Shown piece after piece: positions 703 to 20,034 of a stretch of 64,000 nt of DNA. Positions within the stretch are counted from its first letter, which is position 1; every line of letters begins with the position of its first letter. The position numbers and the translations under genes are program-made. Origin of the DNA: Hyphomonadaceae bacterium (GTDB lineage: Bacteria > Pseudomonadota > Alphaproteobacteria > Caulobacterales > Aquidulcibacteraceae); NCBI GenBank assembly GCA_019753175.1, contig JAIELK010000018.1:1-64000 (forward strand), read 5' to 3'. Under the pieces are notes generated by a model. That model was not told where the DNA came from. It saw only the letters and a list, made by a program, of their open reading frames with translations, and did no database searches.

Positions 703-993
703 ATGAGCCAGCAACCCAACGCCGACCGGCCATCAGGAATTGGAGTTTTGCCCTTGGGGATAGCCTTGGCCGTGACGCTGCTCGCCGCCTACGCGGCCTG
801 CTGGTTGGTCGCGGCCTCGCCCTACGCGGCGCCGTTCGCACACGCTTGGCTGCAATTGTTCTCAGCCGAGCCCCAAGGCTCGATGGCGCAACTGATTGAG
901 GGCAGCATCTTCAGCGCGGTCGCCGCCTGGTTCGCCGCGCTCATCTTTGCGCCGGTCTATAATCTCGTCGCGCGCGCCGACCGCATTATCTGA
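703..993 (+). CDS. DUF5676 family small membrane protein
   Basis: A 96-residue protein with two hydrophobic segments (about residues 15-40 and 66-90) ending in ALIFAPVYNLVARA, which matches the DUF5676 C-terminal pattern of small membrane proteins in metal-resistance clusters. The start at 703 was chosen because AAGGAGG at 687-693 gives 9-nt spacing; the earlier in-frame ATG at 694 sits directly on the Shine-Dalgarno and is unlikely. It is the first gene of the rightward unit, 31 bp before the type II GAPDH. Function unknown; a role in metal homeostasis is inferred from context only. Confidence 0.7.
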   Translation: MSQQPNADRPSGIGVLPLGIALAVTLLAAYAACWLVAASPYAAPFAHAWLQLFSAEPQGSMAQLIEGSIFSAVAAWFAALIFAPVYNLVARADRII

Positions 994-1024
994 CGCCCCG
1001 TCCGAGCCGCGCAAAGAGGAAGTC

Positions 1025-2017: not shown

Positions 2018-2056
2018 ATACGAGCCGCCATCGCACGGCGAGCGGGAACACGTGAC

Positions 2057-4348: not shown

Positions 4349-4421
4349 GTCCATTCAAATTGATCGAACGAGCATCGCCGCCGCACGGGGGAGGGAGGTG
4401 GCCGCGCAACGGACGCAAGTC

Positions 4422-4556
4422 ATGAAATTGCTGACAATCGCAAGGGTCGGTGCGTTCGCTCTGGCTCTCGGCGCTTGCTCTCACATGAGTCAAGCCATGC
4501 TTTCTGACGCACGAGGGCGCCAACGGGCTTGTGGGCGCATAGCCGATGCCGAATGA
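4422..4556 (+). CDS. Putative truncated lipoprotein
   Basis: A 44-codon frame beginning with a convincing lipoprotein signal: MKLLTIARVG, a hydrophobic core, and LGAC with the lipidated Cys at residue 19. After about residue 28 the sequence turns into Arg-rich, low-information residues and stops. The 3' part overlaps, antisense, the broken end of the SAM synthetase fragment. It looks like the 5' remnant of a longer lipoprotein gene cut at the same junction. No strong ribosome binding site is visible. It may equally be a non-functional fragment. Confidence 0.35.
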   Translation: MKLLTIARVGAFALALGACSHMSQAMLSDARGRQRACGRIADAE

Positions 4557-5054
4557 GGTGTCGTTGGCGCGGGGCGCGCCACCCAACCGGTGGTCAAAGA
4601 GACTGCGTAATTGGCTTGAGCCTTGGCGCAGCACGGGGTGGATGCGCACGTGCCGCACCGGGTCAAGCGCATGGATATGGTCCCCAAGCCAGTCGCGCGC
4701 GCTTGCGACGGCGATCTCGTGCAAATGCTTGGCCCCGTCGTCTCCCGGCGAGACGGCGCGGCCGGCCAGATAAATGTCGATCGGCGCGGTCACGCGTCCG
4801 CCGCCGAAGGCGGAAAGCGATTGGCCGCCGCAGAGCAGCGCCTTGTCGACGTTATGATGCTGTATCTCGCCGAACGCGGCAATGTAGTGGCGACAGAGCG
4901 CGCGAGAGAGCGCCTCGGCCAAGCCATCGCAGATTGTGTCCGGATGCCCTCGGCCCTTGTGCTCCACAACCTCGACGCTCTCGGTTTGCGCGGGCTTCAC
5001 CGAGAGGACCAGATTCAGGTTCGGTCTGCCTGGAGGCGGCGGGTGAAGACTCAT
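4520..5054 (-). pseudogene. Archaeal-type methionine adenosyltransferase, N-terminal fragment
   Basis: The leftward reading frame starts with ATG at 5054, overlapping the copC stop (ATGA). It gives about 178 residues strongly resembling the N-terminal half of archaeal-type SAM synthetase (mat): ESVEVVEHKGRGHPDTICDG, HHNVDKALLCGG, FGGGRV, and ending at NDTSFGIGYAP. Family members are about 400 residues; here recognisable homology stops near 4,520. The frame then runs open but unrelated to 4,260, antisense to the ATPase gene. The enzyme would make S-adenosylmethionine from methionine and ATP. Without its C-terminal half it is almost certainly inactive. Confidence 0.75.
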
Positions 5055-5437
5055 CGCACGGTGAAGCGGATCTCGCCTGGCATCGTGTCGGTTCCGCCAG
5101 TCCCCGTTGCTGTGAAGCTCAAGCGATAAGCGCCATCGGCCAAGGCGGGCACAGCGATTGAGTAGGTGCGCCGGTGCGGTTCGCGCTCGAAGGTCAACTG
5201 GGTGACTACGCCGTGCGCGTCGGTGATGGAGAGTCTTTGCAGCGTGACTGCATGCTGGAAGGTAAGTGTCAGCGTTTGCGGGGCTTCGTCGAGCACGGCG
5301 CCGTCCGCTGGATTCGAGTAAGCCAGCATGGAATGGTTCGTGCCCGGCAGATGCGTGTTGTGGTCGTAGATCTGCGCTGATACTGGCGCGGCGAGCGCCG
5401 CTGCGGCCACGACTACCGCAAGAGCGATCTCTCTCAT
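5051..5437 (-). CDS. copC: CopC-family periplasmic copper-binding protein
   Basis: A 128-residue protein. ATG at 5437 has AGGAGG nearby upstream and is followed by a clear signal peptide (MREIALAVVVAAAALAAPVSAQ). The mature part has NHSMLAYSNPADGAVLDEAP and a beta-sandwich pattern ending in MPGEIRFTVR, the CopC fold. CopC proteins carry copper in the periplasm, often with an N-terminal His ligand; the His residues in YDHNTHLPGTNH are candidates. It follows a His-rich membrane peptide and overlaps the SAM synthetase fragment by ATGA, so all three were one leftward unit. No CopD partner is seen. Confidence 0.85.
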   Translation of the reverse strand: MREIALAVVVAAAALAAPVSAQIYDHNTHLPGTNHSMLAYSNPADGAVLDEAPQTLTLTFQHAVTLQRLSITDAHGVVTQLTFEREPHRRTYSIAVPALADGAYRLSFTATGTGGTDTMPGEIRFTVR

Positions 5438-5553
5438 GATTGCCTCCTTTGGCGCGGGGCCGCCCCACCGCCGGCATTCGGGGCGAGGCGCCTTTGCTGA
5501 GATTACGCAGGCGGCGTGGGCGCCCCTGGATTTGCGGCCGGCGAACGTCGCAT

Positions 5554-5835
5554 TCACTCCGCGCCCTGCTGAATGTCGCCTCGAGAAGGCGAATCAGCGC
5601 GGCCTTTCCACGACGAACGCCAGCAGGAACTGGTTGCTGCGACGGCGGTGGCGGCTTTGACGGGATCGCCCGTTTCATTCGCGGGCGTCTGTGTGGCGCC
5701 TATCGATCCGGGGGCATGGCGATGTCCCCGACGATGACCGCCGTGGCCGTGACCGTGGCCGTGGCCAAAGGTGTGCATGGCGACCATGGCCACCGCCAGC
5801 GCGATCCAGATCCAATTGTTCGCAAGCCAAGCCAT
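5554..5835 (-). CDS. Small His-rich membrane protein
   Basis: A 93-residue protein with one N-terminal transmembrane helix (WLANNWIWIALAVAMVAMHTF) followed at once by a His/Gly run (GHGHGHGHGGHRRGHRH). Such short helix-plus-His proteins are common beside copper ATPases and CopC. The remainder (about residues 45-93) is Ser/Arg-rich with no domain I recognise and may be a degraded tail. GGAGA precedes the ATG at 5835. It is the first gene of the leftward copC unit. A role in metal binding at the membrane is inferred from composition and context. Confidence 0.6.
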   Translation of the reverse strand: MAWLANNWIWIALAVAMVAMHTFGHGHGHGHGGHRRGHRHAPGSIGATQTPANETGDPVKAATAVAATSSCWRSSWKGRADSPSRGDIQQGAE

Positions 5836-5948
5836 GTGACGTCTCCAGGTTTGCGCAATCGCCGAGATCGAGACCAGGCATTGCGGGTGGCTGAGCGCGT
5901 ATACGCTGGACGCCGCACTTGGCGGGAGTGACGGGGGCCCGGCTTGGC

Positions 5949-5970
5949 GCGCTCATTGGTTTTTGAGCGC
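5949..5970. terminator. Possible hairpin after ppk2
   Basis: A 7-bp perfect stem, gcgctca (5949-5955) and tgagcgc (5964-5970), with an 8-nt T-rich loop. It lies about 50 bp beyond the leftward ppk2 stop and upstream of the His-rich gene. There is no clear U-tract on the exit side, so it is a weak terminator candidate. Confidence 0.25.
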
Positions 5971-6017
5971 CGGCCCCGGAAAAAGAACGGACCAGTGACC
6001 AGCTCTTCCTATGCCGA

Positions 6018-6806
6018 TCAGTCTGCAAGGGCGCCGTCTTCCAGTCTCTCGGGTTCGAACCGGAAGACGATTTCCTCATGCGGCTTGGCAGCGTGCTCAT
6101 CGCGGTCTGGGCACTCAACGTGTGAGAGGAGATGGGCGATGAGGTTGAGCCGCGCCGACTTCTTGTCGTCCGCCTTGACGACGTACCAGGGCGTGATCTC
6201 GTTTTGGGTGCGCAGAAGCATTTCGTTGCGGGCGGCGCTGTAGTCGTCCCAATGGTCGAGGGCGACGCTGTCGATGGGGCTCACCTTCCACTGCTTGAGC
6301 GGGTCGCGGCGGCGCGCCTCAAGGCGGCGTTCTTGTTCGCTCTTGGAGATGTCGAGGTAGTATTTGAGCATCTGGATGCCTGACCGAGCGAGCAGGCGCT
6401 CGAATGGAAGCACGGTTTCCATGAACTCGTCATATTGCGCCTCGGTGCAAAAACCCATGACGCGTTCGACGCCGGCGCGATTGTACCAGCTGCGGTTCAT
6501 CAGCACCATTTCTTGGTTCGTCGGCAGGTGGTGCGCATAGCGCTGAAAGTACCAGGAACGCGCGTCGTGGTCGGATGGCCGCCCGAGCGCCACCACGCGC
6601 GTCTCACGCGGGCTCAGATGCTGTACAATGCGTTTGATTGCGCCATCCTTGCCGGCCGCGTCGCGGCCTTCGATCACAATGAGAAGCCGATGATCGAACT
6701 TAATGAGGTGGCGCTGCAGCTTCACAAGCCCAATCTGCAGCTCTCTCAGTTGTGTGCGATATTGGTCATCGGAAGCGGCGTCGGCGTGTTTGTGTCGCTT
6801 TTTCAT
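6018..6806 (-). CDS. ppk2: Polyphosphate kinase 2 family protein
   Basis: A 262-residue PPK2. It has a Walker A loop GRDAAGKDG (residues 47-55), a lid/Walker B region with VLMNRSWYNRAGVERVMGF, and the family blocks KYYLDISKSEQERRL, DPLKQWKVSPID and VKADDKKSARLNLI. PPK2 enzymes phosphorylate nucleoside di- or monophosphates using polyphosphate. Full single-domain length suggests class I (NDP to NTP), which is inference. The start at 6806 begins the conserved region with a basic MKKRHKH leader; the frame extends much further upstream but without family similarity. It stands alone between the copper cassette and cfa. Confidence 0.9.
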   Translation of the reverse strand: MKKRHKHADAASDDQYRTQLRELQIGLVKLQRHLIKFDHRLLIVIEGRDAAGKDGAIKRIVQHLSPRETRVVALGRPSDHDARSWYFQRYAHHLPTNQEMVLMNRSWYNRAGVERVMGFCTEAQYDEFMETVLPFERLLARSGIQMLKYYLDISKSEQERRLEARRRDPLKQWKVSPIDSVALDHWDDYSAARNEMLLRTQNEITPWYVVKADDKKSARLNLIAHLLSHVECPDRDEHAAKPHEEIVFRFEPERLEDGALAD

Positions 6807-7284
6807 GGAGACCTCGTGGATTGATGATCGCCCAATATGGCTCGCGTCAGTTCCGTGCGGCGAGGAAGTCGGCGGTGGAAGAGACTGATGGCCTAAGTCG
6901 GCGCCGCATGAACCGGTGGACCACGAAAGTCGGAGAGGTTCTGAGGCCACTTGCACTTGCCGTCTGGCGGTGGGCGTGCCGGCCGGCGGCAGGCTCATCG
7001 ACGTCACTGCAAGGTCGACGCGAGGGCGGCCGGGCCGAACAAGAAGAGGGGCTCGAACGTGCGACACGATGCCTAAGAGAGGTCCCGCCAGATTGTGCTT
7101 CCGAGACTGATACGCATTGCACGCGCTCGCCCCTTGTTTGGCGTTCCAGGGGAAGACCCGCCGCCTGCGTATCTTCCGTTTAAGCGCACCCGTTTCATGG
7201 GAGCGCGCGGCGGCCGGCGCCAGTGCTGCGATTGAAATCGCGAAGCTCGCAACGCCGGCCGCCCTCGCCAAGGGCCGATACGCC
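6807..7284. other. Intergenic region, no gene seen
   Basis: This 478-bp spacer separates leftward ppk2 from rightward cfa and should contain both promoters. Frames on both strands are short, Arg/Ser-rich and unlike known proteins. I could not identify a convincing promoter, RNA gene or repeat. Confidence 0.5.
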
Positions 7285-8553
7285 ATGCTCGATTACGCCG
7301 CCAACCCGCCAGACAAGCCTGCTGGGAAATCCAGTCGGCGCAACCGCTTCAGTCCGTCCGAGGGTATCCTATGCGCGGCTTTGGAAAGGCTCATAAGCCG
7401 GGGCGCACTTGCGCTGCGCTTGCCCAGTGGGCGCGAACGTCGCTTCGGCGAAGATGGGGCAAGTCTCGTTGGCGTCGCGCTCGAAGACGCCAATGCGGTT
7501 CGGCGGCTCATGGCCAATGCCGAACTTGCACTTGGCGAACTTTACACCGATGGCCTCCTAGTCATCGACGGCGACGACATCGACGGGCTCCTGGCGCTCA
7601 TCCTGCAAAATCTTCGCGAGCATGGCTTCAGGACGCGCGCGGCACCTGCCGGCATACGCCTTGCGGAAGTCCCGCGCCGCGAGATCAACGGCAAGCGGCG
7701 CGCCCTGCGAAATGTTGCGCACCATTATGATATTTCCAATGAGTTCTATCGTCTCTTCCTCGACGAGGACCTGCAGTATTCCTGCGCCTATTTTGAAACC
7801 GGCGCTGAGACGCTCGAACAGGCGCAGGAGGCGAAAAAGGAGTTGATTGCAGCCAAGCTTTGCCTGCGCCCGGGCCTTTCGATCCTTGACATCGGTTGTG
7901 GCTGGGGCGGGCTTGCGCTCCACTTGGCGCGGACGCGCGGCGTCAATGTGCGCGGCATAACGCTGTCGCAGGCGCAATTGCCAGTGGCGCGCATGCGCGC
8001 CCAAGCGCAGGGCCTGGCGGCGCAAACAGAGTTCGCGCTCGAAGACTATCGAGAAACCAATGGCGCGTTCGACCGCATCGTCTCGGTCGGCATGTTCGAA
8101 CATGTCGGGCGCGGTCACTACGATGAGTTTTTCCGACAAATTGCGGCGCTTCTTGCTGAGGACGGCGTGGCCCTCTTGCATACGATCGGACGAGCGGATG
8201 GACCGGGGGCGACGAGCCCTTGGATCGACCGCTACATCTTTCCAGGCGGCCATATTCCAGCACTTTCCGAGATCATGCCGGCGATCGAGCGCGCGGGACT
8301 CTACGTGACCGACATCGAAGTGTGGCGGCTTCACTATGCCTTCACGCTGCGCGCCTGGCGCGAGCGCTTCGAAGCGCACCTGAACGACGTGCGCGCGATG
8401 TTCGATGAGAGTTTCTGCCGCATGTGGCGCTTCTATTTGGCTGCAAGCGAAGCGGCGTTTCGATACGGCGGCCATGAAGTGTTTCAAATTCAGCTTGCGC
8501 GTCGCCAGGACGCCGTCCCGCGAACACGCCGCTATCTGGAACGCACCGGTTGA
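7285..8553 (+). CDS. cfa: Cyclopropane-fatty-acyl-phospholipid synthase
   Basis: A 422-residue enzyme that transfers a methylene group from S-adenosylmethionine to unsaturated phospholipid acyl chains. The N-terminal domain is followed by NVAHHYDISNEFYRLFLDEDLQYSCAYF, the SAM motif LDIGCGWGG (D202-G209), SVGMFEHVG and the late YIFPGGHIPALSE block. This is the normal CFA synthase layout and length. The start at 7285 (MLDYAANPPDKP) was chosen because upstream in-frame sequence lacks similarity; its ribosome binding site is weak, so the start is uncertain. It is a further SAM-consuming gene in this accessory region. Confidence 0.92.
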   Translation: MLDYAANPPDKPAGKSSRRNRFSPSEGILCAALERLISRGALALRLPSGRERRFGEDGASLVGVALEDANAVRRLMANAELALGELYTDGLLVIDGDDIDGLLALILQNLREHGFRTRAAPAGIRLAEVPRREINGKRRALRNVAHHYDISNEFYRLFLDEDLQYSCAYFETGAETLEQAQEAKKELIAAKLCLRPGLSILDIGCGWGGLALHLARTRGVNVRGITLSQAQLPVARMRAQAQGLAAQTEFALEDYRETNGAFDRIVSVGMFEHVGRGHYDEFFRQIAALLAEDGVALLHTIGRADGPGATSPWIDRYIFPGGHIPALSEIMPAIERAGLYVTDIEVWRLHYAFTLRAWRERFEAHLNDVRAMFDESFCRMWRFYLAASEAAFRYGGHEVFQIQLARRQDAVPRTRRYLERTG

Positions 8554-8816
8554 GCCGGGCGACGGCCTCCGCATAGGGATGTGAGCGCGCACAGCCCAGG
8601 TTGCGCCAGTAGTGGGGAGGCGCGCGAGGGTTGGCTTCCAGGCTGGCGCGCTCACTCATCATACGCACGAACGGCGTGCTCCCCTCATCGGTCGAACACG
8701 GAGCAACGCAGCCAAGCTGTTGAGAAGGATCTGCACCTGAATCGCATTGACGATGCCGAGGCGGCGCAGGGGCTGACGCGCAAGGCCCGCGCGGCCGATC
8801 AGCCAGGCGCATATCG

Positions 8817-9326
8817 ATGAGCTTCGGCGCTCAACTGCGTCTTGTTTTGGTGATGGCGCTCTGGGCGTCCTGCTTTCCGCTAATAGCCCTTGGGCTTGAG
8901 CTTGCGCCGCTCTTGGCGTTCGCGGCGCTCCGAGCCGCGATCGGCGGGATCGCGCTCATTGGCGTCGCGGTCCTACTGCGCTGTCCTATGCCAAAAGGTC
9001 AGGCCGCCTGGGGCATGATTGTTCTTCTAGCCTTGAGCGCGACGTCGCTCGGTTTTCTCGGCATGTTTCACGGCGCGGCATTCCTGTCGCCTGGTATCGC
9101 CACGCTCATCTTCAGCACGCAGCCGCTCGCGGCGGCTTTGCTTGGGCGCCTCTTTTTTGGGCGAACGATTGAGCCGGCAGGGCGATGGCCGGGGCCCGGG
9201 TCAGGGATCGCCGCCCGGAGGGCGAAGACGTGCACCACGATTTGCGGACGGAGCGGCTTCGTGCGTCAGCACAAGAGGCCGGCCGCCGGAGGTGGCGGAC
9301 TCTGCCAATGGGCGGCAGAGACTTGA
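8817..9326 (+). pseudogene. Truncated EamA/DMT-family transporter
   Basis: The first about 118 residues form four hydrophobic helices typical of the N-terminal EamA repeat of drug/metabolite transporters (VLVMALWASCFPLIALGLEL, GIATLIFSTQPLAAALLGRL). After about 9,170 the reading frame becomes Arg/Gly-rich with no helices and stops at 9,326. A normal EamA protein has about 290 residues and ten helices. The second EamA repeat is absent, so this is a deletion remnant. The 8,554-8,816 spacer before it has no recognisable gene. Confidence 0.65.
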
Positions 9327-9385
9327 GCCGTATCAAGGGCGCTTGTGTGCGCTCACTCTAGGCTAATGACTTGCAGGAGGCGCTT

Positions 9386-10240
9386 ATGCCGGGCCACGCA
9401 CTCATTTCGCCGTCCGACCTCTCTGAATTGATGCGCGCCGAGCCGGTCGTCTTGATCGACACGCGCGACCCGGCGCAGTTCGACGAAGGCCACATTGCCG
9501 GCGCCGTGAACCTGCGAGAGGTGTTCACATTCCTGTCGACCGCATCGTCTGGCGGCCTTGCTGGTCTGCGCGAGACATTCGCGCAAGCCTTCGGTGCTGC
9601 GGGCCTCTCGGGAGGCGAAACCGCCGTCGTCTATGAGCAGTCGATGGAGTCGGGATTCGGTCAGTCCTGCCGCGGTTATGTGCTTCTACGCTATCTCGGC
9701 TATCCGAAAATCAAGGTGTTGCATGGAGGTTTCGCCGCTTGGCGCGCCGCGGGCCTTCCGATCACGGCGGACGCGACCGCGCCCAAGCCGAAACAATTTC
9801 CAATGGGGCAGGATGGGCTATCGGTGCTCGCGGACATCGACGCGATGAAGGCTGCGGTCGCCGATCCAAAGATCGTGAAACTGGATGTGCGCGACGTGGA
9901 CGAATGGATCGGAGAGAGTTCGTCGCCATACGGGAAGGACTTCTGCCCGCGCAAGGGGAGACTACCTGGCGCGGTCTGGATCGAATGGTATCGGATGATG
10001 AAGCCGACGCCGACCGGACAGATGTTCAAGTCGCCGGACGAAATTCTCGCGGAATGCGCCACAGTCGGGATCAGAAAAGACACGCCGGTGGTGATCTATT
10101 GCTTCAAGGGCGCGCGCGCCTCAAACACCTTCCTCGCGCTGGAAGAGGCCGGGGTGAAGGATGTGCGGATCTATTTCGGCTCTTGGAATGAATGGTCGCG
10201 TGATCCGGCTCTGCCTATTGAGACGGGCAGGCCTTACTAA
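9386..10240 (+). CDS. Tandem-rhodanese sulfurtransferase
   Basis: A 284-residue protein with two rhodanese domains. The N-terminal one (about 5-130: VVLIDTRDPAQFDEGHIAGAVN) lacks an active-site Cys. The C-terminal one (about 145-284: KLDVRDVDEWIGE) carries Cys239 in YCFKGARAS. This asymmetric arrangement is normal for thiosulfate/3-mercaptopyruvate sulfurtransferases, which pass sulfane sulfur from a donor to a thiophilic acceptor. AGGAGG at 9375-9380, 5 nt from ATG 9386, fixes the start over the upstream TTG. It has no obvious operon partner; substrate unknown. Confidence 0.88.
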   Translation: MPGHALISPSDLSELMRAEPVVLIDTRDPAQFDEGHIAGAVNLREVFTFLSTASSGGLAGLRETFAQAFGAAGLSGGETAVVYEQSMESGFGQSCRGYVLLRYLGYPKIKVLHGGFAAWRAAGLPITADATAPKPKQFPMGQDGLSVLADIDAMKAAVADPKIVKLDVRDVDEWIGESSSPYGKDFCPRKGRLPGAVWIEWYRMMKPTPTGQMFKSPDEILAECATVGIRKDTPVVIYCFKGARASNTFLALEEAGVKDVRIYFGSWNEWSRDPALPIETGRPY

Positions 10241-10470
10241 GCGACTTCCGCATTCTGCTCCTGTTGTGGCGTCGCCACCCGCACGACGGCGGCGCGAGAT
10301 GCGGTAGTCCCCGAAGCAAAGACGAGCGGACCCGCACGACCTGCATCGGGTCCGGGTCGGTTGGCGTGACGTAGCTTTGCTCCGACAATTATCGCTTGCT
10401 GCCGCGAAGAGGTTTAGGGGCGCGTTTGGTCGGCTAGGACGGGATGTGTCGCCCGGGCAAGAGAGAACGC

Positions 10471-11607
10471 ATGAGAACCGCACAAGCTTGCCTCAGCGCT
10501 GAACTCGTCCGGATGTGCCAACGCCGCGCGACGGTGGGCATTCAGTATGCGGCGCGCTTTGGCGACGACAATCCGATCGAAGGCGTCGCCGGCAGCGCGG
10601 ACGTGGCGGACCGCGCGCCTGTCGGCCCGGGGTCTGTCTTCCTGTCGTGCTCCTGCACGAAGCTTCTAACCAGCATTCTGATCCTCCAATTTGTGGATGG
10701 CGGCGCCTTGCGTCTGGACGACTCGCACCGCCGCTTTGTCCCTGAAAGCCCCTATCCCGCCGAGATAACGATCGAGATGCTGCTCGCCCATAGCGCGGGG
10801 GTTCCCAACCCGATGCCGCTTCGTTGGATCCACACGCAAGCGCAGGATGCGCACTTCAGCGAAGCTGAGGCGCTGGCAGCCGCACTGCGTCGTCATCCTC
10901 GACTCTCCAGCGCCCCCGGCGCGCGCGTCGGCTACAGCAATTTGGGATATTGGCTCTTGGGGACGTGTCTGGAGCGGACGAGCGGGCGAGGGTTTGCGGC
11001 GTTGCTGCAGACGAACATTGTGGCGCGCCTGAAGCTCGATGCGGCGGCGCTGAGTTGCGCCTTCCCGAACGTCACGCGGGCGGTTCGCGGGCATTTTCCG
11101 CGCTGGGGCGTTGCAACAGCGCTCGCACGAACGGCGGCGTCGCCCGAGATCTGGGACGGCGGAGACCGAGATTGGTTGCGCCTTGCCCCGCTTACGATGA
11201 ACGGCGCCGCGTTCGGCGGCGCATTCGCCACCGCATCGGGATATCTTGCCGTCCTGCGAGACCTGCTGGAGCCAAACCCTGCGCTTCTCTCCACCGCGAT
11301 CCGTCGGAAACTCTTTGAACCCTATCGCGACAAACGCGGACGCTTGTGGCCGGTAACGCTTGGTTTTCGCATCGGCGAACAAGACGGAGAGCGCTATTTC
11401 AGCAAGCCCGGCGGCGGCCCGGGCTTCAGCGGCGATGTCCGTCTCTTTCCGGGCAAGCGGCTGGCGACCGCTTGGCTGCGTAATGTCTATGCGTTCAGCG
11501 AGGCTGCCATCTGGGCTGTATCGCGCCGGCTGGACGCAGCGATCCTTCGCAGCGCGGACCTCAGCCGAAAGCCGGGCACAGCCAAAGACCGTAAACGGCG
11601 ACCGTGA
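10471..11607 (+). CDS. Beta-lactamase-fold serine hydrolase (class C-like)
   Basis: A 378-residue member of the beta-lactamase/penicillin-binding-protein-like family (PF00144). The nucleophile Ser61 and general base Lys64 form SCTK, Tyr155-Ser-Asn157 gives the YxN motif, and KPGGGPGFSG stands where the third motif (HxG/KTG) is expected. No signal peptide is evident, so it may be cytoplasmic. Such proteins are usually esterases or peptidases rather than antibiotic resistance enzymes. GAGAG precedes ATG 10471. The upstream gap contains a 7-bp inverted repeat GGACCCG/CGGGTCC (10328-10334/10347-10353). A membrane protein follows 57 bp downstream. Confidence 0.85.
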   Translation: MRTAQACLSAELVRMCQRRATVGIQYAARFGDDNPIEGVAGSADVADRAPVGPGSVFLSCSCTKLLTSILILQFVDGGALRLDDSHRRFVPESPYPAEITIEMLLAHSAGVPNPMPLRWIHTQAQDAHFSEAEALAAALRRHPRLSSAPGARVGYSNLGYWLLGTCLERTSGRGFAALLQTNIVARLKLDAAALSCAFPNVTRAVRGHFPRWGVATALARTAASPEIWDGGDRDWLRLAPLTMNGAAFGGAFATASGYLAVLRDLLEPNPALLSTAIRRKLFEPYRDKRGRLWPVTLGFRIGEQDGERYFSKPGGGPGFSGDVRLFPGKRLATAWLRNVYAFSEAAIWAVSRRLDAAILRSADLSRKPGTAKDRKRRP

Positions 11608-11664
11608 GCCGAATTTGCCGGCGCGGCGCAAGCGGTTAGACTGGAGCGCCCGGCCAATCGACAA

Positions 11665-12339
11665 ATGCCGCTTGGCCGGTGGTGGAGCCAGGACGTGCGA
11701 AGGGCCAACTACGCGGAGGGCGTCGTCGCCGCCGTAGCAATCTTTGCAATTTGCGCTGCCTGGCTTGCCGCGCCGCACTTGCCCCAGTGGTTCGCCCGCT
11801 TTTTCGGGTCTGCTCCGCCAGCGCTGTGTATCGCCGGATTGGGCGTCGCGGCTTTGGTGTTGACCCCGTTGCTGAAGCGGCGCGGTTGGTGGGGCGCATT
11901 CCGACTTGAGATGTTGCTTGTCGTCCCGTTGCTTGTGGCCGGCTTCGCCTTGGCGATCACCGTCGCGGACCGGCTCGCGGGCTTTCCGCCTGACCTGAAC
12001 GCGCCGCTGCCCTGGTCGCTGCTCTACTATCCTGCAATGGGTTTTGCGGCGCAGGTCGGACTGCACCTCGTTCCTCTTGCCGCAATCGTTCTTTGGGCGC
12101 CGCGTTTCGCGCAAGCGCGGCCGTGGATGACCATGGCGGCTGCGTCTGCGCCGGAAGCCATGCTGCAGGTGATGAGCAGCGAAAGCACCGTGGCGGCTTT
12201 CGTCGCCGCACACCTTGTCTTGTTCGGCGTGACCGAACTGCTTCTCCTCCGCAGGTACGGCTTCATCGCGATGTATGCGTTTCGATTGGGATACTACCTC
12301 TATTGGCACATTCTGTGGGCTGCCTGGCGCGCAGGCTGA
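11665..12339 (+). CDS. Hypothetical multi-pass membrane protein
   Basis: A 224-residue protein with about six hydrophobic helices. The polar loop FPPDLNAPLPWSLLYYPAMGF and the following helices with APEAML and AAHLVLFGVTELLLLRRYG vaguely recall intramembrane CPBP-type proteins, but the diagnostic EExxxR motif is not seen. It follows the serine hydrolase on the same strand and may be co-transcribed. I do not recognise the family, and no function is proposed. Confidence 0.6.
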   Translation: MPLGRWWSQDVRRANYAEGVVAAVAIFAICAAWLAAPHLPQWFARFFGSAPPALCIAGLGVAALVLTPLLKRRGWWGAFRLEMLLVVPLLVAGFALAITVADRLAGFPPDLNAPLPWSLLYYPAMGFAAQVGLHLVPLAAIVLWAPRFAQARPWMTMAAASAPEAMLQVMSSESTVAAFVAAHLVLFGVTELLLLRRYGFIAMYAFRLGYYLYWHILWAAWRAG

Positions 12340-12530: not shown

Positions 12531-12589
12531 GAGTCGGCTTAGGTGCGGCCAACCTGCGCTTGCGCGGCCACGATGGCAGGGACGGAGTA

Positions 12590-13732
12590 ATGCTTGATCC
12601 CAGAAGTCAGTCCGACCTCAAGGAAGCCATTGCCGAGTGCATCGGCACGGATCACGGCGTGCTTGAGGCGTTGCGGGCTGAGATCGGGCAACTGAAGCCC
12701 GGCGTCCGCAAAATCCAACCACGATCGACAACGTCGATCTCGCTCGTCGGCACCGATGGCGGAAACAATCAGCTTCAGTTCGATCCGTTCTTGATCCAAC
12801 TCATCCGGGTCGTGGACTCTAGCGCGAATGAATACTGCCTAGAGGCCGTTTCGCCGACCACGCCTGTTAGCAAGCTAGTCCGTCGCCACCTCGATGAGAA
12901 TCAGCTGCCCAAAACCGCCCTTGGCGAGATGATGGCTTACCTGGGGGTTTCGTCGCTCGTCCAACTCTCGCACATGATCCGGTCGAACGAGGGTGGTCGG
13001 CCCGTCTCGCCGAGCTGGGTTCAAGTTTATCGCGAGCTTGTAGAGTGGGCGACGCTCTTCTCGTTGCTCAACAAGGATTTCGGTACTGATACGCTGATTG
13101 TCTGCGATGGACTGCTGAGGAGCAAGGTTTTCGCGAAAGACCTTTTCGCTCGCCTTCGGCAAGGGATACGCGAGCGAATTGAAGCTCAATGGAACAAGAG
13201 TCGGCGTCGCATCTATTTGGCCGGAGTCGCGAAGCACTCAAAAGTGCTGACTCGATATCGGCTCGCCATGTCACTCGAAGGCGTGATGCAAGTCGATTAC
13301 CCCGCGTATGCCGAAGTTCCCCGCGAGATCGAAGAAAAGGCCTACGTCTGGTCGGAATTTGCGCGAGGCGACGAAGAGGCCGAAGGCGGCGGCGAGATCA
13401 ACAAGTTTGTTGGCGGCAAGATGTTCTTGGTCAAGTTCGGATCGTCACCGCGTGATCCGATATGGCCGGTTGATATATTCGAAGCACAGATTGCAGACGC
13501 CCAGGTCGTCATTGGTTCGATGCTCGCGGATGCGATCAATGGCTTTCCGGTGCCTCACTATCCTCGGTGCCTTCAAAAGGCGCACGAGAATGCGGCTCTT
13601 GTCGATTTCGACTACGATATTCTTCAGGACTTCATTTACGAGGGTGTGCGCGGGAGCCTTGGAAACCAAGGGCCTGCGCTAGATGCGTTCCAGCTTCAGG
13701 ATGCTGACCCTGCACAAAAGCGCTACGGCTGA
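12590..13732 (+). CDS. NurA-domain nuclease
   Basis: A 380-residue protein with the NurA nuclease signature: an acidic motif VGTDGGNNQLQFDPF near residue 52, a second DTLIVCDGLLRSKVF block, GVAKHSKVL, and a C-terminal PHYPRCLQKAHENAAL. NurA enzymes are Mn-dependent 5'-3' exonucleases/endonucleases that work with the hexameric HerA translocase, whose gene follows 11 bp downstream. The start at 12590 (MLDPRSQSDL) was preferred over an upstream TTG. By eye the gene is less GC-rich than its neighbours, consistent with transfer. HerA-NurA pairs are standard in archaea for end resection; here, with a methyltransferase beside an integrase, a role in defence is inferred. Confidence 0.8.
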   Translation: MLDPRSQSDLKEAIAECIGTDHGVLEALRAEIGQLKPGVRKIQPRSTTSISLVGTDGGNNQLQFDPFLIQLIRVVDSSANEYCLEAVSPTTPVSKLVRRHLDENQLPKTALGEMMAYLGVSSLVQLSHMIRSNEGGRPVSPSWVQVYRELVEWATLFSLLNKDFGTDTLIVCDGLLRSKVFAKDLFARLRQGIRERIEAQWNKSRRRIYLAGVAKHSKVLTRYRLAMSLEGVMQVDYPAYAEVPREIEEKAYVWSEFARGDEEAEGGGEINKFVGGKMFLVKFGSSPRDPIWPVDIFEAQIADAQVVIGSMLADAINGFPVPHYPRCLQKAHENAALVDFDYDILQDFIYEGVRGSLGNQGPALDAFQLQDADPAQKRYG

Positions 13733-13743
13733 GGAGCGTTAGC

Positions 13744-15838
13744 ATGGCCGCGTTCGAACTTTTTCCCAAAGACAAAGTCGTCGGCATTTTTCGGGGCTTC
13801 CAGCAAGGCGGCCTCGAATTTCATGCCGATCTAGTCATGCCCTATCGGAATGATTTTCAGAACATCCCGATGCACGGACAGTTTGTGCTGGTTCAGTTGG
13901 AAACTCCTGATGAAGCGGTGATGGGCCGCATCGCCTCCTTCTCTTCTGAAGGCAAACTCTCGTTTGGGTCAGGTGAAGAATTCAACATCCGGGCCGTTCG
14001 AGAAGAACGCCCCATCCCTGAAGACCTACGCGAGCAATACCTAAAGTATCGGATCAACATTCGAGTGCTCGGCGTAATCCGACGCAATGGCAACGGTCTT
14101 ACTTTTGTGCCCTCTCATCGGCGCCTGCCACACGTTGGCAGCAAGGTTGCGTTTCCATCAAACGAAGTGTTGCGAGAAATTGCGGGCCATAACATCGATG
14201 GAGCAGCCATCGGCCATTTGGCGTTTGGCGAATATATCTACTACGGAGGCACCGATGGGCGCGACGCCGCCGACTGGATGCAAATTGTTGCGCCCGAAGT
14301 TCAAGTTCGCTTCCCGGTCCAATCGCTGGTCTCGCGTAGGAGCTTCATCTTTGCGCGTGCAGGCTTCGGCAAGTCGAATCTGAACAAGCTGCTTTTCGCA
14401 GAGTTGTATCGCGAAACGCCGACCGTCCCCAAACGCAACGGTAGGAATGCGCCTGTCGGCACCGTCGTGTTCGATCCCGATGGCGAGTATTTCTGGCCCG
14501 ATGATAAAGGGCGTCCTGGCCTATGCGACGTGCCCTCCCTCGAAGACAAGCTCGTTGTTTTCACAGAGCGCAGACACAGCAGTGCGTTCTACCAATCCTT
14601 TGTTGCAGGTGGCATCAAGCTGGACATTCGGCGCCTGAGGCCATCGGATGTGATCGCGATTGCGCTCAGTCCCGAACGGCAAGAGCAGCAGAATGTCCGC
14701 AAACTGCGTGGCTTGCCTCAACCCCGTTGGGAGCAGTTAGTCAATCTCATCGACGAGCACGGCAACACCGCTTCGATGGATGAGCTTTGTCAAATTCTCG
14801 ATCTTGACCGGGATCGGCAGGAAGCTGAAGCGCTCGCCGCTCGCAGCAACATGACAACGATTGTCCGAATGCTGCATGACAAGAGCAGTCAGCTCATGGA
14901 CATGCATGATTCATGCGCTTTCTCAGGGAAAACTGTGTGTGATCGATGTCTCGCAGATGCGCGGTGGCCAATCGCTCATCTTGTCTGGGCTGATCCTGCG
15001 GCGCATCTTTGATCGGAACCAAGAGGAATTCACTGCCGCTGATCCGAAGACCATCCCGACTATCGCGGTGGTGGAAGAAGCTCAGTCAGTGCTCAATGAG
15101 AACGCGCAAGCCGCAGAGCCGTATATCGCTTGGGTGAAGGAAGGGCGGAAGTACGACCTCGGAGCGCTACTCATTACGCAGCAGCCCGGCAGCATCCCCG
15201 TCGAAATTTTGAGCCAAGGCGACAACTGGTTCATCTTCCATTTGTTGTCGGCTGCGGACTTGGGCTCCCTGAAAAGGGCAAACGCGCATTTTAGCGACGA
15301 CTTGTTGAGTTCGCTGCTGAACGAGCCAATCCCCGGTCAGGGTGTGTTTTGGAGTTCTGTCGGCGGCAAGCCGTATCCTGTGAGCTTGCGAGCGGAGTCT
15401 TTCGAGCGGCAGTTCAGTTTGAGGGACCGAGACAACAATGGTTCGGCGGCCAATACTTTCGCGAGAGTGCTACGCTCTGAAATCGTCGAACCAATTCAGT
15501 CCGATCCAAACGCGACCACCGCCGCCGCTCCCGGCGTCTTCCCCGATCAAGGAGGGGATCAGCACCTTGATGTTAAGGCGAGCATGGAGGCGCGGGCAAT
15601 CGCCGGGCTGCGCTCGAATGAAGACATCATGTGTAAGTTGCAGGGCACTGACGGCATAGCGTGGTTCGGCGTTCAGAAGGCGCTCATGGACGCCCTCCCT
15701 GATCACATCGATGACCGTCAGCAGTTGGCGTACAACTTGGTTCCGCGTGCGCTTGACGCGATATTCGGCCCGCAAAAATGGGAGACGTACAAGAACCCCA
15801 CGACTAACAGGACGTGGGTGCGGCGCAAGGGTGGTTGA
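13744..15838 (+). pseudogene. HerA-type DNA translocase ATPase, frameshifted
   Basis: Two overlapping frames (13,744-15,012 and 14,861-15,838) encode one HerA/FtsK-superfamily ATPase. The N-terminal HAS-barrel-like region is followed by Walker A at A206-S211 (ARAGFGKSN), and FDPDGEYFWPDDKG. The second frame supplies CVIDVSQMRG, Walker B (VVEEAQ) and LLITQQPGS. The break is a tandem duplication of CATG at 14,901-14,908. Removing one copy joins the frames seamlessly into a protein of about 696 residues with normal motif order. HerA hexamers pump DNA and drive NurA. As read the gene is disrupted; a recent mutation or a sequencing error both fit, since no other lesion exists. Confidence 0.8.
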
Positions 15839-15840
15839 GA

Positions 15841-16938
15841 GTGCCGCGATTTGACAAAGATGAGATCGCGCTAAACGCCATCTGCCCTTACTTCACAATG
15901 TTCCCTCTGGAATTCCCGCTCGGAATTCTAGCGAGGCATGCGACGCAAGGCGAAACCGTGCTTGACCCGTTTTGCGGTCGGGGGACCACAAACTTCGCTG
16001 CGCGATTGTTGGGTCTCTATTCGATGGGAGTGGATTCTAGTCCGGTTGCGTCGTCAATCACTGCTTCGAAGCTAGCTAGCGTCAGTGCCGATGAGATCGT
16101 GAAAGAAGCGGCAAAAATACTCCAACGCAAGCGCCACAGCGAACTTCCCACCGGCGAATTTTGGCGGTTGGCATATCACAAGAACGTTCTGCTCGATCTC
16201 TGCAAACTCAGGGAAGCATTTCTTGAAGACTGTTCTTCCCCTGCGCGGCGGGCTCTGAGAGGCCTCGTGATGGGAGCGCTTCACGGCCCCCAACAAAAGT
16301 CCTTTGACAGCTACCTGTCCAATCAATGCCCGCGCACCTACGCGCCGAAGCCGGCCTATGCAACGCGCTTCTGGAAAGAGCGCGGGCTCAAGCCTCGCGA
16401 TGTCGATGTTGCAGATGTCATTGGGCGACGTGCAAAGCGTTTCTTCGAACGTGACATTGGCGGTCGCGGCGTTGCGAGATTGGGCGACAGCCGCACGGCG
16501 CGCGCGCTTCGGCGCAATGGAAGAGGTTTTGACTGGGTTGTAACCTCGCCTCCTTATTATGGGATGCGGACCTATATTCCCGATCAATGGCTGCGGAACT
16601 GGTTTGTTGGTGGCACAGAGAGCGTTGACTATTCGAGCGCAAAGCAGCTTGCGCACGGCAGCCCCACCGACTTCGCCGCTGATATGGGGCTAGTTTGGGC
16701 GAACTGCCGCGCCGTGTGTGAGGATGACTCGAAGATGGTTATACGCTTCGGCGGCATCGCAGACCGAAATCACGACCCGAAGGAGATTGTCCGCATGTCG
16801 CTTGAGGGTTCTGGATGGGAAATCCAAACGATCAAGGCAGCGGGGAAAGCTTCGGATGGGAAGCGGCAGGCCGACACGTTTTTGACGACCAAATCCAAAC
16901 CGATTGAAGAATGCGTTGTTTGGGCGCGCGCTGCATGA
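15841..16938 (+). CDS. DNA methyltransferase (N6-adenine or N4-cytosine type)
   Basis: A 365-residue SAM-dependent DNA methyltransferase. Motif I is DPFCGRGTT (from D42), and the catalytic motif IV is SPPY at residues 236-239. Thus motif I precedes motif IV with about 190 residues between, where a target-recognition region could lie. The SPPY form fits N4-cytosine or N6-adenine modification. The GTG at 15841, two bases after the HerA stop and preceded by AAGGGTGG, was chosen over an ATG at 15814. Close coupling to nurA and herA suggests it marks self DNA against the nuclease-translocase, an inference. The 3' end overlaps the convergent Sel1 gene. Confidence 0.85.
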   Translation: MPRFDKDEIALNAICPYFTMFPLEFPLGILARHATQGETVLDPFCGRGTTNFAARLLGLYSMGVDSSPVASSITASKLASVSADEIVKEAAKILQRKRHSELPTGEFWRLAYHKNVLLDLCKLREAFLEDCSSPARRALRGLVMGALHGPQQKSFDSYLSNQCPRTYAPKPAYATRFWKERGLKPRDVDVADVIGRRAKRFFERDIGGRGVARLGDSRTARALRRNGRGFDWVVTSPPYYGMRTYIPDQWLRNWFVGGTESVDYSSAKQLAHGSPTDFAADMGLVWANCRAVCEDDSKMVIRFGGIADRNHDPKEIVRMSLEGSGWEIQTIKAAGKASDGKRQADTFLTTKSKPIEECVVWARAA

Positions 16939-17707
16939 AGCGGCGGAATGTGGACACACTAGCCGGAAAGTCGATGTGCCCGAAGTCGCGCATGTAGTCG
17001 TTTAGGGTTTCAAGGACGCTGCGGCGATACTGTACCTTCGGATTGGGCTTTCCGTCACGGTAAACGTGCGCGTGATAGCTCTTGATGCTATTGTGAAGTT
17101 TGGGAAGCTTCTGGCGGACGGGGCGAGAGCCAACACCCTTGAAAAAGAGCCGGGCGCGCGCTGTCATGATTTCGACCGAGGGGCAATCGCGCGCTTCTTC
17201 ATACCAATCAAGGGCGCGAAATGCGTCGATCTCGCATCCAGCACCGCGCTCATAACACTGACCCAAATAGTACATGGCGATAGGATCCCCGCCGCGCGCG
17301 CCGCGCTCCGCCCACTCGAAGGCGAGGTCGCCATCTTGCGGGTAGCCTGCAGCGCCTTTCAGATACAGGCGCGCCAAAGTGGCGAAGGATCGTACATGAT
17401 GTTCTTCGAACAGGATCGCGAGTCCATGCTGTGCTACGCGCATCCAATGCGGCTCGGCCTCCTCGGCCATCTGATCGATTAGGAACCAGGCGTAGTCCTG
17501 ATCTTTCTGGTGTGTGAGCACCCTTTGCGCCAAGTCGGCCCCGGCGTCCCGCACGCGCGCCAGGTAGGCCTCAATCTCCTGTTGGGCAGCGCTCGCCCGC
17601 GCCTCGATTTCGCGCCGTACTTCTTGTTCAAAGGGGAGGCCGCGCGAGGCGTCCGCAAGTGAAGAAAGCGCGGCGTCGTCCAGTTGCTGAAACGGTGAGT
17701 TGGTCAT
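16832..17707 (-). CDS. Sel1/TPR-repeat protein, possibly truncated
   Basis: A 291-residue frame. ATG at 17707 has GGAGG a few bases upstream. Residues 1-70 are acidic and helical; residues 100-180 contain two Sel1-like repeats (LARLYLKGAAGYPQDGDLAFEWAERGA, YYLGQCYERGAGCEIDAFRALDWYEEA). The last about 35 codons lie antisense to the methyltransferase 3' end and look like shadow sequence, so the native C-terminus may have been lost. Sel1 repeats mediate protein-protein contacts. It lies between the methyltransferase and the integrase in the island, but transcription opposes the cassette. Its function is unknown. Confidence 0.65.
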   Translation of the reverse strand: MTNSPFQQLDDAALSSLADASRGLPFEQEVRREIEARASAAQQEIEAYLARVRDAGADLAQRVLTHQKDQDYAWFLIDQMAEEAEPHWMRVAQHGLAILFEEHHVRSFATLARLYLKGAAGYPQDGDLAFEWAERGARGGDPIAMYYLGQCYERGAGCEIDAFRALDWYEEARDCPSVEIMTARARLFFKGVGSRPVRQKLPKLHNSIKSYHAHVYRDGKPNPKVQYRRSVLETLNDYMRDFGHIDFPASVSTFRRFMQRAPKQRILQSVWIWSSKTCRPAASHPKLSPLP

Positions 17708-17813
17708 CGGAACCTCCGACAACCGGCATGGAGGCACTCGCTGCGGCCTGCAATCGTGGGGAGGACGCGTGCCAATAAGTGATAATGTCCGCCGACAGAA
17801 AGCGATGCTGCAA

Positions 17814-18872
17814 TCACCCCTGCGTCTTCCGCTGCAGCACCGCGTGCAGGCCTTCAGGGCGCAGCTGCGTGTAGCGCTTCAGCGTCTTCCAGTCCTTGTG
17901 CCCGGTCACAAGCGGCACCTGTTCGATCGTGAGGCCTGCTTCAAACAGGCGGCTGGTTGCCTCATGCCGCAGGTCATGGAAACGCAAGTCGATGATCTGG
18001 AGGTCTTTGCACGCACGTCTGAACGCGCTGCCGACTGATCTTCCATTGCACGGAAAACAGCGCGGACCGTTCAGACGCAGATCACGTTGATCGAGCAGCA
18101 ACTGATAGGCGTCATAGCCGGTCGCCGAGAGGAGTGGCACACGCTGGTCGTTGCCTGCCTTCTTTCGGGGGTCTTTCCGGTCCGGCACCATGATGGTTCG
18201 CCTGCGCGCATCCAGCGTGTCCCATGTCACCCGGAAGATTTCGTCCTGGCGCATGCCGGTTGCTATCGCGAATTGTACAAGCCGCGTCATGGGGAAGGCG
18301 GGCCGCTCGGTCCTGTCGAAGTGTCCGAAGAGGCGTTCCAGTTCTTCCTCTGTTGGCCTGCGGTCCCGCTCATCCGGCTGGCCCACGAGCCCGAGGCGCC
18401 TGAGCCCGAGCCGCGCAGCGTTCACAGCCTCCACATCAACGGCCACGCCATGCACGGCCGCCGCATGCTTGAGGATCGTGCCAATGAAGGAAATATCGAC
18501 CGCGAGGGTTGCGGGCCCGGCGCCCTCCAAGGCCCGTTCGCGCCCGTACTGGATGAGCTTGTCCCGCGTGAGGTGGGTGAGGGGCGTGAGGCCCAAGCGC
18601 TTCCGGAGCGCCCGGAGCGTATGATCCTTCGAGCGGCGAAGCGGCTTGCCGACTGTGTGCAGGTCATCGATATGCAGATCGATCAGACTGCCGAACGTGT
18701 TCTTGCGGGAGAGGCGGACAATGGCCGGGTTCAGCTGGCGGTCCACCGCCAGCTCAGCTTCACGCGCCCAGTCTTCCGCGTCCATCTTGCGGATAAAGGT
18801 CTTGGAGAGCGCATGCCCATTTCTGCGGATTTGCACCCGCCATTTGCCCCGGCGTTTTGCGATGGTCGCCAC
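17814..18872 (-). CDS. Tyrosine recombinase / phage-type integrase
   Basis: A 352-residue integrase. The N-terminal region has an arm-binding pattern (KRRGKWRVQIRRNGHALSKT), then a core-binding domain, then the catalytic domain with Arg (ATGMRQDEI), Lys in the DRKDPRKKAGNDQR stretch, HDLRHEA, TGHKDW and the nucleophile Tyr in KRYTQL. GTG at 18872 has GGAGG at the ideal 8-nt spacing; a TTG at 18887 overlaps that site and is less likely. It is transcribed away from dusA, whose 5' end it abuts. dusA is an established integration hotspot for this type of element. It probably mobilised the nurA-herA island. Confidence 0.92.
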   Translation of the reverse strand: MATIAKRRGKWRVQIRRNGHALSKTFIRKMDAEDWAREAELAVDRQLNPAIVRLSRKNTFGSLIDLHIDDLHTVGKPLRRSKDHTLRALRKRLGLTPLTHLTRDKLIQYGRERALEGAGPATLAVDISFIGTILKHAAAVHGVAVDVEAVNAARLGLRRLGLVGQPDERDRRPTEEELERLFGHFDRTERPAFPMTRLVQFAIATGMRQDEIFRVTWDTLDARRRTIMVPDRKDPRKKAGNDQRVPLLSATGYDAYQLLLDQRDLRLNGPRCFPCNGRSVGSAFRRACKDLQIIDLRFHDLRHEATSRLFEAGLTIEQVPLVTGHKDWKTLKRYTQLRPEGLHAVLQRKTQG

Positions 18873-18913
18873 GACGCTCGCCTCCAATCAGCGCGCCTCA
18901 AGACACCTGGCGT

Positions 18914-19000
18914 GGGCACAATCCGGGCACAAGCAGCCCGAAAACACGTGCTAACGAGCGGAATCAAAGGCGAACAAATGGGCACAAATGCGTGTGCCCA
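18914..19000. repeat. GGGCACA repeat cluster, likely integrase-binding/att region
   Basis: Between integrase and dusA, GGGCACAA occurs at 18914-18921, 18925-18932 and 18980-18987. The first two are 11 bp apart, one DNA turn. The third is half of a perfect palindrome, TGGGCACA (18979-18986) and TGTGCCCA (18993-19000), with a 6-nt spacer. Such arm- or core-type arrays are expected at att sites of tyrosine integrases. A second copy marking the other island end was not found in the window. Confidence 0.5.
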
Positions 19001-19023
19001 AGCTGTTGAGGGTCTTAGAAAAT

Positions 19024-20034
19024 ATGCCGGAAAACAATAGGATGCGCTTCTCCGTCGCTCCAATGATGGATTGGACGGATCGGCATTGCCGGGCGTTTCA
19101 TCGTCAGCTGACACGCCGGGCGTTGCTCTACACCGAAATGCTCACGGCAGACGCCGTGATCCATGGCGATCGCCATCGCTTGCTTGGCTATGATCCGATC
19201 GAGCATCCAGTGGCGTTGCAGCTGGGCGGCAGCGATCCAGCGAAGATGCGCGAAGCCGCGGCCATAGGGGCGGCTTTCGGTTACGACGAGATCAACCTCA
19301 ACATCGGCTGCCCGTCGGATCGCGTACAATCGGGCCGGTTCGGCGCTTGTCTGATGCTGGAACCGGATCTGGTGGCGAGCTTATGGAGCGCGGCCAAGGA
19401 GGGCGCCGGCGATGTGCCCGTCACCATCAAGTCCCGCATCGGCGTTGACGAGCAGGCGCCGCGCGAAGCGTTGTTCGCGTTGGCCGATGCTTGCGCGCAG
19501 GCGGGCTGCACGACCTTCATCGTGCATGCGCGCAAGGCGTGGCTCGCGGGGCTCTCACCGAAGCAGAACCGCGACATTCCTCCGCTCGACTACGACCTGG
19601 TGCACGCACTCAAGCGCGAGCGACCTGCTCTGGCGGTTGTCTTGAACGGCGGGCTACGCGATCTCGATCATGCGCTGGCCGAGCAGGGCGCGCTGGACGG
19701 CGTGATGCTGGGACGCGTTGCCTACCAGAATCCGGCGATCCTGCTTGAGGTGGATCCGCGCGTGTTCGCGGCGCGGGCGCCGAACCCGGATCGCGCCGCG
19801 GCGGTGGAAGCCTACCTCCCTTATGTCGAAGCGATGCTGGCGCGCGGCGTGCCGCTGCATGCGATGACACGCCACATGCTGGGCCTGTTCAACGGCTTGC
19901 CTGGCGGGAGACGTTGGCGCCGGACGCTATCTGAGCGGGCGGTAAAGCCTAACGCCGGCGTGGAGGTGATCCAAGACGCGCTCGGGGCTGTTGGCGTCGA
20001 TCCTGCTCTGTCGGCTGCGACCGTCTTAGCCTGA
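19024..20034 (+). CDS. dusA: tRNA dihydrouridine synthase A
   Basis: A 336-residue TIM-barrel flavoenzyme that reduces uridines in the tRNA D-loop using FMN and NADPH. It has FSVAPMMDWTDRHCR, DEINLNIGCPSDRVQ with the catalytic Cys, GRFGACLM, HARKAWLAGLSPKQNR and VVLNGG. ATG at 19024 has GAGGG 11 nt upstream; MRFSVAP at 19042 is an alternative start. The 5' coding region around PMMDWTDRHC is the usual attachment site for dusA-specific integrases. The upstream 5' end may thus be island-supplied, leaving an intact gene after integration. Confidence 0.95.
   Translation: MPENNRMRFSVAPMMDWTDRHCRAFHRQLTRRALLYTEMLTADAVIHGDRHRLLGYDPIEHPVALQLGGSDPAKMREAAAIGAAFGYDEINLNIGCPSDRVQSGRFGACLMLEPDLVASLWSAAKEGAGDVPVTIKSRIGVDEQAPREALFALADACAQAGCTTFIVHARKAWLAGLSPKQNRDIPPLDYDLVHALKRERPALAVVLNGGLRDLDHALAEQGALDGVMLGRVAYQNPAILLEVDPRVFAARAPNPDRAAAVEAYLPYVEAMLARGVPLHAMTRHMLGLFNGLPGGRRWRRTLSERAVKPNAGVEVIQDALGAVGVDPALSAATVLA

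Follow-up and report, generated by a model that had tools for sequence, protein, structure and literature searches.

The very probable right end of a dusA-specific genomic island in a Hyphomonadaceae genome, and the recurrent geometry of its putative integrase arm sites

Genomic islands specific for dusA, reported from Alphaproteobacteria, carry their integrase beside the 5' end of dusA, supply the gene with a new start, are bounded by imperfect attL and attR sites of 21 bp and extend over tens of kb with varied cargo; kinship of the dusA-associated integrases to Rci has also been reported (Farrugia et al. 2015, PMC4482086). The SGI1-related element IMEVchUSA3 of Vibrio likewise has dusA as its target, with a new dusA N-terminus and promoter reported, and elements of this kind carry rdfN, which is PrtN-like, together with an IncC mobilisation module; tandem dusA elements were reported earlier as well (PMC8409611). 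In the Cluster K mycobacteriophages, putative arm-site pairs flank the core, and a tentative connection was drawn between differences in the arm word and residues 17 and 19 of the integrase (PMC3203893). The island that we describe here is of the kind described by Farrugia et al. (2015), with which it shares the place of the integrase, the new dusA start, the imperfect 21-bp sites, a length of tens of kb and a varied cargo; the words "arm", "inverted", "tandem", "nitrate" and "copper" do not occur in the main text of that paper, whereas here we find paired arm-type sites in a constant arrangement and, apparently, a nar and copper cargo. With IMEVchUSA3 our locus shares the target gene and the new dusA N-terminus, but its genome yields no match to PF11112, and with Cluster K it shares the pairs flanking the core, although that comparison concerned another integrase family and few genomes, whereas here 77 integrases reveal one exceptionless alignment column. 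In the literature that we searched, outside of which most subscription journals lie, we found no paper on arm sites at dusA integrases, the mycobacteriophages providing a precedent: the arm geometry and the correlation with integrase residue 26 go beyond the literature found, while the island itself is of a known type.

We analysed bases 1-64,000 (hereafter the window) of a 175,402-bp contig, C5, from a genome of 3.13 Mb in 40 contigs, with a completeness of 99.94% and a single dusA. A dusA-specific genomic island very probably has its right end (attR) in the window and its distal end on contig C15. The features at this end are as follows:

16832-17737, minus strand: Sel1-repeat protein beside the integrase (Pfam search)
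17814-18887, minus strand: tyrosine integrase of the dusA-specific kind (Pfam PF00589, PHROG 1 integrase, invariant residues, AlphaFold model)
18914-18931, plus strand: putative outer arm-site pair GGGCACA-ATCC-GGGCACA in an 11-bp register, -149/-138 from the core (motif search)
18980-18986, plus strand: putative inner arm site in direct orientation, -83 (also in the relative L083)
18993-18999, minus strand: putative inner arm site, inverted, the right half of a "palindrome" (inverted copy in L083 at other spacing)
19024-20034, plus strand: intact dusA, whose first codons (MPENNRMRFSVAP replacing native MKQLDRRFCIAP) would be island-supplied (Pfam PF01207)
19055-19075, plus strand: candidate attR core of 21 bp, 18 of them identical to C15:59962-59982 (core comparison)

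The integrase ORF matches the Pfam family Phage_integrase (PF00589) with an E-value of 1.6e-19 and dusA matches Dus (PF01207) with 6e-75. The integrase would comprise 357 aa from TTG 18887 or 352 aa from GTG 18872, the latter being probably the start because homologues begin MA(T/S)F; for dusA, the start is probably 19024 rather than 18988, since comparison with relatives shows their start codons in agreement with it. These choices of start leave a gap of 137-152 bp between the two divergent genes. Residues R213, H304, R307, H330 and Y339, which we assigned as the catalytic pentad by motif and by eye, are invariant in the integrase alignment, as the RHRH/Y residues of tyrosine recombinases. 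The AlphaFold model (mean pLDDT 86.2; 74-87 across the first five blocks of ten) has a lambda-integrase fold, with an N-terminal domain of three strands (3-7, 10-17 and 20-26) and a helix (29-44), and its structure matches are led by lambda integrase: the full-length chain 1z1b aligns with Z 16.2 and rmsd 10.5 over 293 residues. The same three strands and helix form the N-terminal domain of the arm-binding-domain tyrosine recombinases (PMC8138268). Matches to the integrase further include one phage match annotated as shufflon-specific recombinase and plasmid matches, mostly in Escherichia and Salmonella records, which would agree with the kinship to Rci noted above. When GTDB genomes were scanned with an alignment of three integrases, 217 relatives were found, of which the best 80 were kept; the nearest among these, L083, is 73% identical.

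The spacer between integrase and dusA contains GGGCACAA at 18914, 18925 and 18980, as well as the inverted copy, and the arrangement TGGGCACA-AATGCG-TGTGCCCA spans 18979-19000. As a single word the repeat is not rare: the window holds 5 matches where 1.66 would be expected, and at least that number was reached in 5 out of 100 shuffled sequences. The paired arrangement far exceeds chance, with GGGCACAN4GGGCACA (at most 1 mismatch) occurring only twice in the 3.13-Mb genome, in the window spacer and on C15, and its reversed control pattern not at all. A first-pass annotation had already placed a tyrosine integrase some 150 bp from an intact dusA and had counted three copies of the repeat, two of them at 11-bp spacing, all of which agrees with our coordinates. 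It had further interpreted the spacer as an att region with arm- and core-type sites: the arm sites stand, while GGGCACA is not the core, which lies at 19055-19075. The 8-bp palindrome that it described is likewise present, yet is no separate element and consists of two opposed copies of the same word; L083, the closest relative, has them further apart, so that a fixed hairpin can be dismissed. From their placement, the GGGCACA repeats look like arm-type sites of the integrase in a fixed geometry.

As the window begins at base 1 of its contig, the distal att site could only be found on another contig. The first-pass annotation had found no such site within the window and had suggested looking to the left of it for a direct repeat of the dusA 5' segment; in the same genome we located exactly one other match to the 20-base dusA core with at most 3 mismatches, at C15:59964-59983, which extends to 18 of 21 identical bp between C5:19055-19075 and C15:59962-59982. 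At C15:59970 stands a truncated dusA-like start (MKQLDRRFCIAPMMDW) that runs through the core and then into a stop codon, and two GGGCACA words 11 bp apart follow, the first at +50 from the first base of the core. Joining the C15 dusA-like start to the dusA body in silico restores an open dusA N-terminus, MKQLDRRFCIAPMMDWTDRHCR, and the present start, MPENNRMRFSVAP, would be the island's replacement. A search for an overlap between the end of C15 and the start of C5 gave none, and no contig spans both ends of the island. Immediately to the left of the distal site we observed a fragment of EF-Tu comprising about half of the GTP-binding domain (C15:59086-59712; L018:7087-7713), and further left consecutive genes for DUF5682, MoxR-type AAA and DUF5691 proteins (C15:52826-57647; L018:827-5648), of which the DUF5682 gene was found in none of 20 relatives searched.

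We also looked for an empty dusA site by comparing C15 and C5 with 11 dusA neighbourhoods of the genus, in several of which the upstream sequence covers no more than a few kb: none was collinear with the left flank of C15. Outside its island part, C15 matched these neighbourhoods at two places alone, through an EF-Tu-type domain of G004 (30% over 111 aa) and through a 48%-identical stretch in G007 that sits within the island of that genome. In G001 and G010, a block that stands at 28-30.5 kb in the window is instead found upstream of dusA; thus, the dusA region has been rearranged in the genus.

The sequences show the two att sites with their matching arm words, the geometry across the family and the swap of the dusA start, and suggest the following course. 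The integrase would recombine a circular attP with the core that is conserved at the 5' end of dusA. Once integrated, the island would provide dusA with start codons of its own and leave the original start stranded at the far end (attL). In doing so, the three-stranded N-terminal domain would bind the GGGCACA arms, while the core-binding and catalytic domains would act at the core; the attP would have its outer pair at -149/-138 and its distal pair at +50/+61, with single sites between them at -83 (inner) and -70 (inverted). Binding of the GGGCACA words by the integrase is what we infer from this arrangement. Telling against this reading are the unjoined contig ends, the left flank of C15 without a collinear counterpart and, as set out below, the nar-nrdJ blocks that relatives carry away from dusA, the lack of a PF11112 match, the loci that have no exact 11-bp pair and the imperfectly paired words of G031 and G033.

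Within the window, the following cargo precedes the integrase:

896-2017: type II GAPDH, left cargo module (1-9184)
2057-4348: copper P-type ATPase, left cargo module (1-9184)
4260-5678, minus strand: partial AdoMet-synthetase-like ORF, left cargo module
6018-7286, minus strand: PPK2, left cargo module
8817-9326: EamA transporter, left cargo module (1-9184)
9371-12339, plus strand: rhodanese, beta-lactamase-fold hydrolase and one further ORF, island cargo by position
12560-16938, plus strand: segment of low GC content (about 55-57%) with an ORF, two overlapping ORFs that together make up a HerA-type ATPase, and a fragment of a DNA methylase

Rightwards from the C15 site, the order of genes is moaA, a SnoaL-like protein, a Crp-type regulator and a NarK-type transporter with a second transporter domain fused to it, followed by narG, narH, narJ, a weakly matching protein of outer-membrane type, narI, hemerythrin and carbonic anhydrase, and finally by a class II ribonucleotide reductase, TauE, a MoCF protein and moeA before the contig ends. 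At the other end, positions 1-4.5 kb and 7.4-9.2 kb of the window are collinear with relatives at mostly 76-82% DNA identity, the interval between them being unaligned, and synteny with G086, G018, G008, G085 and G089 places contig C36 (10,551 bp, reversed) to the left of C5:1 across a gap of about 2.1 kb. Part of contig C39 probably lies beyond C36; its placement is less sure than that of C36 because contig C30 also matched part of the C39-placing query, at 71-78%. We thus infer the order C15 - (C39) - C36 - C5 within the island. Should the contigs be joined in this syntenic order, the cargo would combine nitrate respiration genes with the copper module, and the island would measure at least 52 kb, this being the sum of C15:59970-82525, C36 and C5:1-19063 without C39 and the gaps. 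The copper cassette, which the first-pass annotation thought might belong to the island, would then indeed be included, with module 1-9184 standing between the two att sites.

Members of the genus have in common a module of about 20 kb with ribose-phosphate diphosphokinase, an RbbA-type ABC transporter, GAPDH-II and the copper ATPase, which corresponds to window 1-9184 plus C36 (L264); GAPDH-II was found in 8 of 30 genus genomes. This module is 97-98% identical at the DNA level between G086 and G018, G085 or G008 over 12.7-15.2 kb, whereas G085 and G018 reach only 76% identity in their nrdJ regions, which points to a recent transfer of the module. We further noted that the copper ATPase gene has at its end a stretch of 186 bp (4161-4346; L269:1-186) with 100% identity to G018, against about 80% in the surrounding module. 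Class II nrdJ (at least 70% identity) is present in 18 of the 30 genus genomes, our own counted, and the nar-nrdJ block is also found away from dusA in relatives: in G007 and G009, it stands on contigs other than that of dusA. A tblastx comparison of cargo with the 80 database loci, which admitted weak matches, gave no convincing common cargo among the matches listed, save for moaA in the element beside the L083 island.

In the low-GC segment, the HerA-type ATPase in two overlapping ORFs occupies 13744-15838, with an ORF at 12560-13732 upstream and the methylase fragment at 15814-16938 downstream; this stretch of 55-57% GC looks like a decayed defence-type cassette. A Pfam search with the small ORFs at 11-18 kb returned nothing. 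The split appearance of the HerA gene speaks for the possibility that the island is now fixed, with an integrase module complete by sequence and excision lost for want of a directionality factor or transfer genes, a state to which we give appreciable weight, clearly short of even. Also in its favour, the whole genome contains no match to the PrtN-type directionality factor (PF11112, E 0.1), a search in which 14 control genomes likewise had none above the cut-off, and no mobilisation gene was found among the ORFs scanned; set against this, integrase ORF, arms and core are all intact, the directionality factor may be of another family, and the contig gaps and C39 fall outside the annotated part. 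We regard the island as presumably still able to excise.

We then compared the arm geometry across the integrase family. The record titles of the 80 relatives name what we take to be alphaproteobacterial groups, except for L085, L097 and L135, whose titles give only "bacterium", Pseudomonadota and Proteobacteria. In 73 of the 80, dusA directly adjoins the integrase, and of the remaining 7, four have contigs that end within 280 bp of the integrase. Our set of integrase-dusA spacers consisted of 78 sequences (76 different), including the window and four genus loci, to which L083 was added by hand (79 loci). In 66 of the 76 distinct spacers, six bases recur exactly, in direct orientation and 11 bp apart, compared with 2.3 in shuffles and 1 of 76 equal stretches taken from within integrase genes; 32 spacers exhibit such a repeat at 10-bp spacing, and neither spacing is seen in 7 of the 79 loci. 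The 11-bp pair starts between -152 and -147 from the core in 64 of the 79 loci, while 5 have it at other positions and 10 lack it. For distal sites, we used core matches from 50 of the 80 genomes and from 5 genus genomes, some sites stemming from the same genome, and left out chance matches in unrelated genes (L174, L180, L183, L200, L206, L216), dusA ends and duplicates (L219; G003 C380), while L171 gave no row. In all 25 distal sites read among the matches listed, one of which (G040 C68, L212) has no preceding dusA-like start, the first base of an arm word falls precisely at +50; after this, +61 is the offset met with most often (8 of 25). The words themselves vary, with GTGTGC the commonest, alongside GGGTGC/CGGTGC, CCATCAC, GGTCAC, AGGCACA and GGGCACA, in lists that we drew up after inspecting the sites. 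Proximal and distal words of the same island match with a mean of 6.80 of 7 positions when both strands are allowed, against 6.45 on permutation, the former value being reached in 0 of 300 permutations, in a comparison weakened by the complementarity of GTGTGC and GCACAC, by distal partners picked by hand with 4 left out, and by G033, whose other site fits better; our case is built rather on word position and on the count of the pair over the whole genome. In G005 (L049, G005:C12:1-20000, about 6274-6948), the integrase match ends near residue 136 and is followed by what to the eye resembles a small ORF of AlpA type.

These comparisons also bear on the idea that the C15 site is the relic of another dusA element, the true distal end being elsewhere or lost. 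Several dusA-type att sites per genome are indeed common: in G048, which has a clean stack of two islands, the element bounded on either side by GGTCAC/GGTCACA gives way to the beginning of a GTGTGC/GTGTGCA element, whose GTGTGC word is also found at the dusA end on another contig, and further dusA cores are present in G031, G033 and G005. Added to this, no contig links C15 with C5. Nevertheless, the genome is nearly complete, with one dusA and a single other core match, and the GGGCACA word is found at just two proximal sites, those of the window and of L083, out of 77 classified and, among the matches listed, at no distal site other than C15 (0 of 24), so that we consider a relic very improbable. 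As to stacking elsewhere, the GGGCACA island of L083 adjoins a distal site with GGTCACA words, while G031 and G033 hold several att sites with words that do not pair cleanly: a clean three-island stack in G031 was rejected, with the words at the second junction mismatching the GGTCACA distal site, and at the G033 junction we looked for clear proximal words and saw none.

We also compared arm words with the integrase sequence. Over 64 loci, the distance between arm words correlates with that between integrase residues 14-60 (Mantel r 0.49, 999 permutations), and r remains 0.42 with catalytic-domain distance removed; the catalytic domain itself has no positive correlation with the arm word once residues 14-60 are accounted for (-0.19). 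That the GGGCACA words are instead operators for a regulator of int or dusA, for which their place between two divergent genes is the expected one, is most improbable, given that the same pair recurs at +50 of the far end, remote from both genes, and that word position stays constant while the word varies and tracks the N-terminal domain of the integrase.

Within that domain, all 58 GTGTGC loci have Tyr at residue 26 (357-aa numbering), two of these rows being an identical sequence, whereas 0 of 19 others do, all 19 of which carry Ala, Ser, Thr, Val or Lys. No other column of the alignment parts the GTGTGC loci without error, the next making 3 errors in 76 distinct sequences. On a tree of 77 integrases (76 different) built without the N-terminal part, and leaving out the partial L049 and L050 as well as L096, L097, L104, L106, L112 and L118, word class and residue 26 each changed at least 4 times; independent pairs on supported branches number 3, all concordant, which is too few for significance (p 0.25). 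Residue 26 corresponds to residue 21 in the numbering of the AlphaFold model and sits in the third strand. By analogy with lambda- and Tn916-type integrases and with the arm-binding-domain tyrosine recombinases (PMC8138268), this strand may contact the arm word. We tentatively propose, at a confidence just under even, a code in the third strand in which Tyr26 would specify GTGTGC, a small residue 26 GGGTGC/CGGTGC, Lys26 CCATCAC, and His25 and Lys29 with a small residue 26 GGGCACA; the words would change over time but keep their places (the pair at about -149, a word at +50), and islands differing in their words could in this way stack at one dusA and excise independently. Lys29 is not exclusive to the GGGCACA type, as it is present in two GTGTGC loci.

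Our findings give this island two mapped ends and suggest that genes for nitrate respiration, for cofactors and for copper share one dusA island. The fixed arm geometry would make the far ends of dusA islands findable across contig breaks, and the correlation with residue 26 would make arm recognition by dusA integrases testable through single substitutions.
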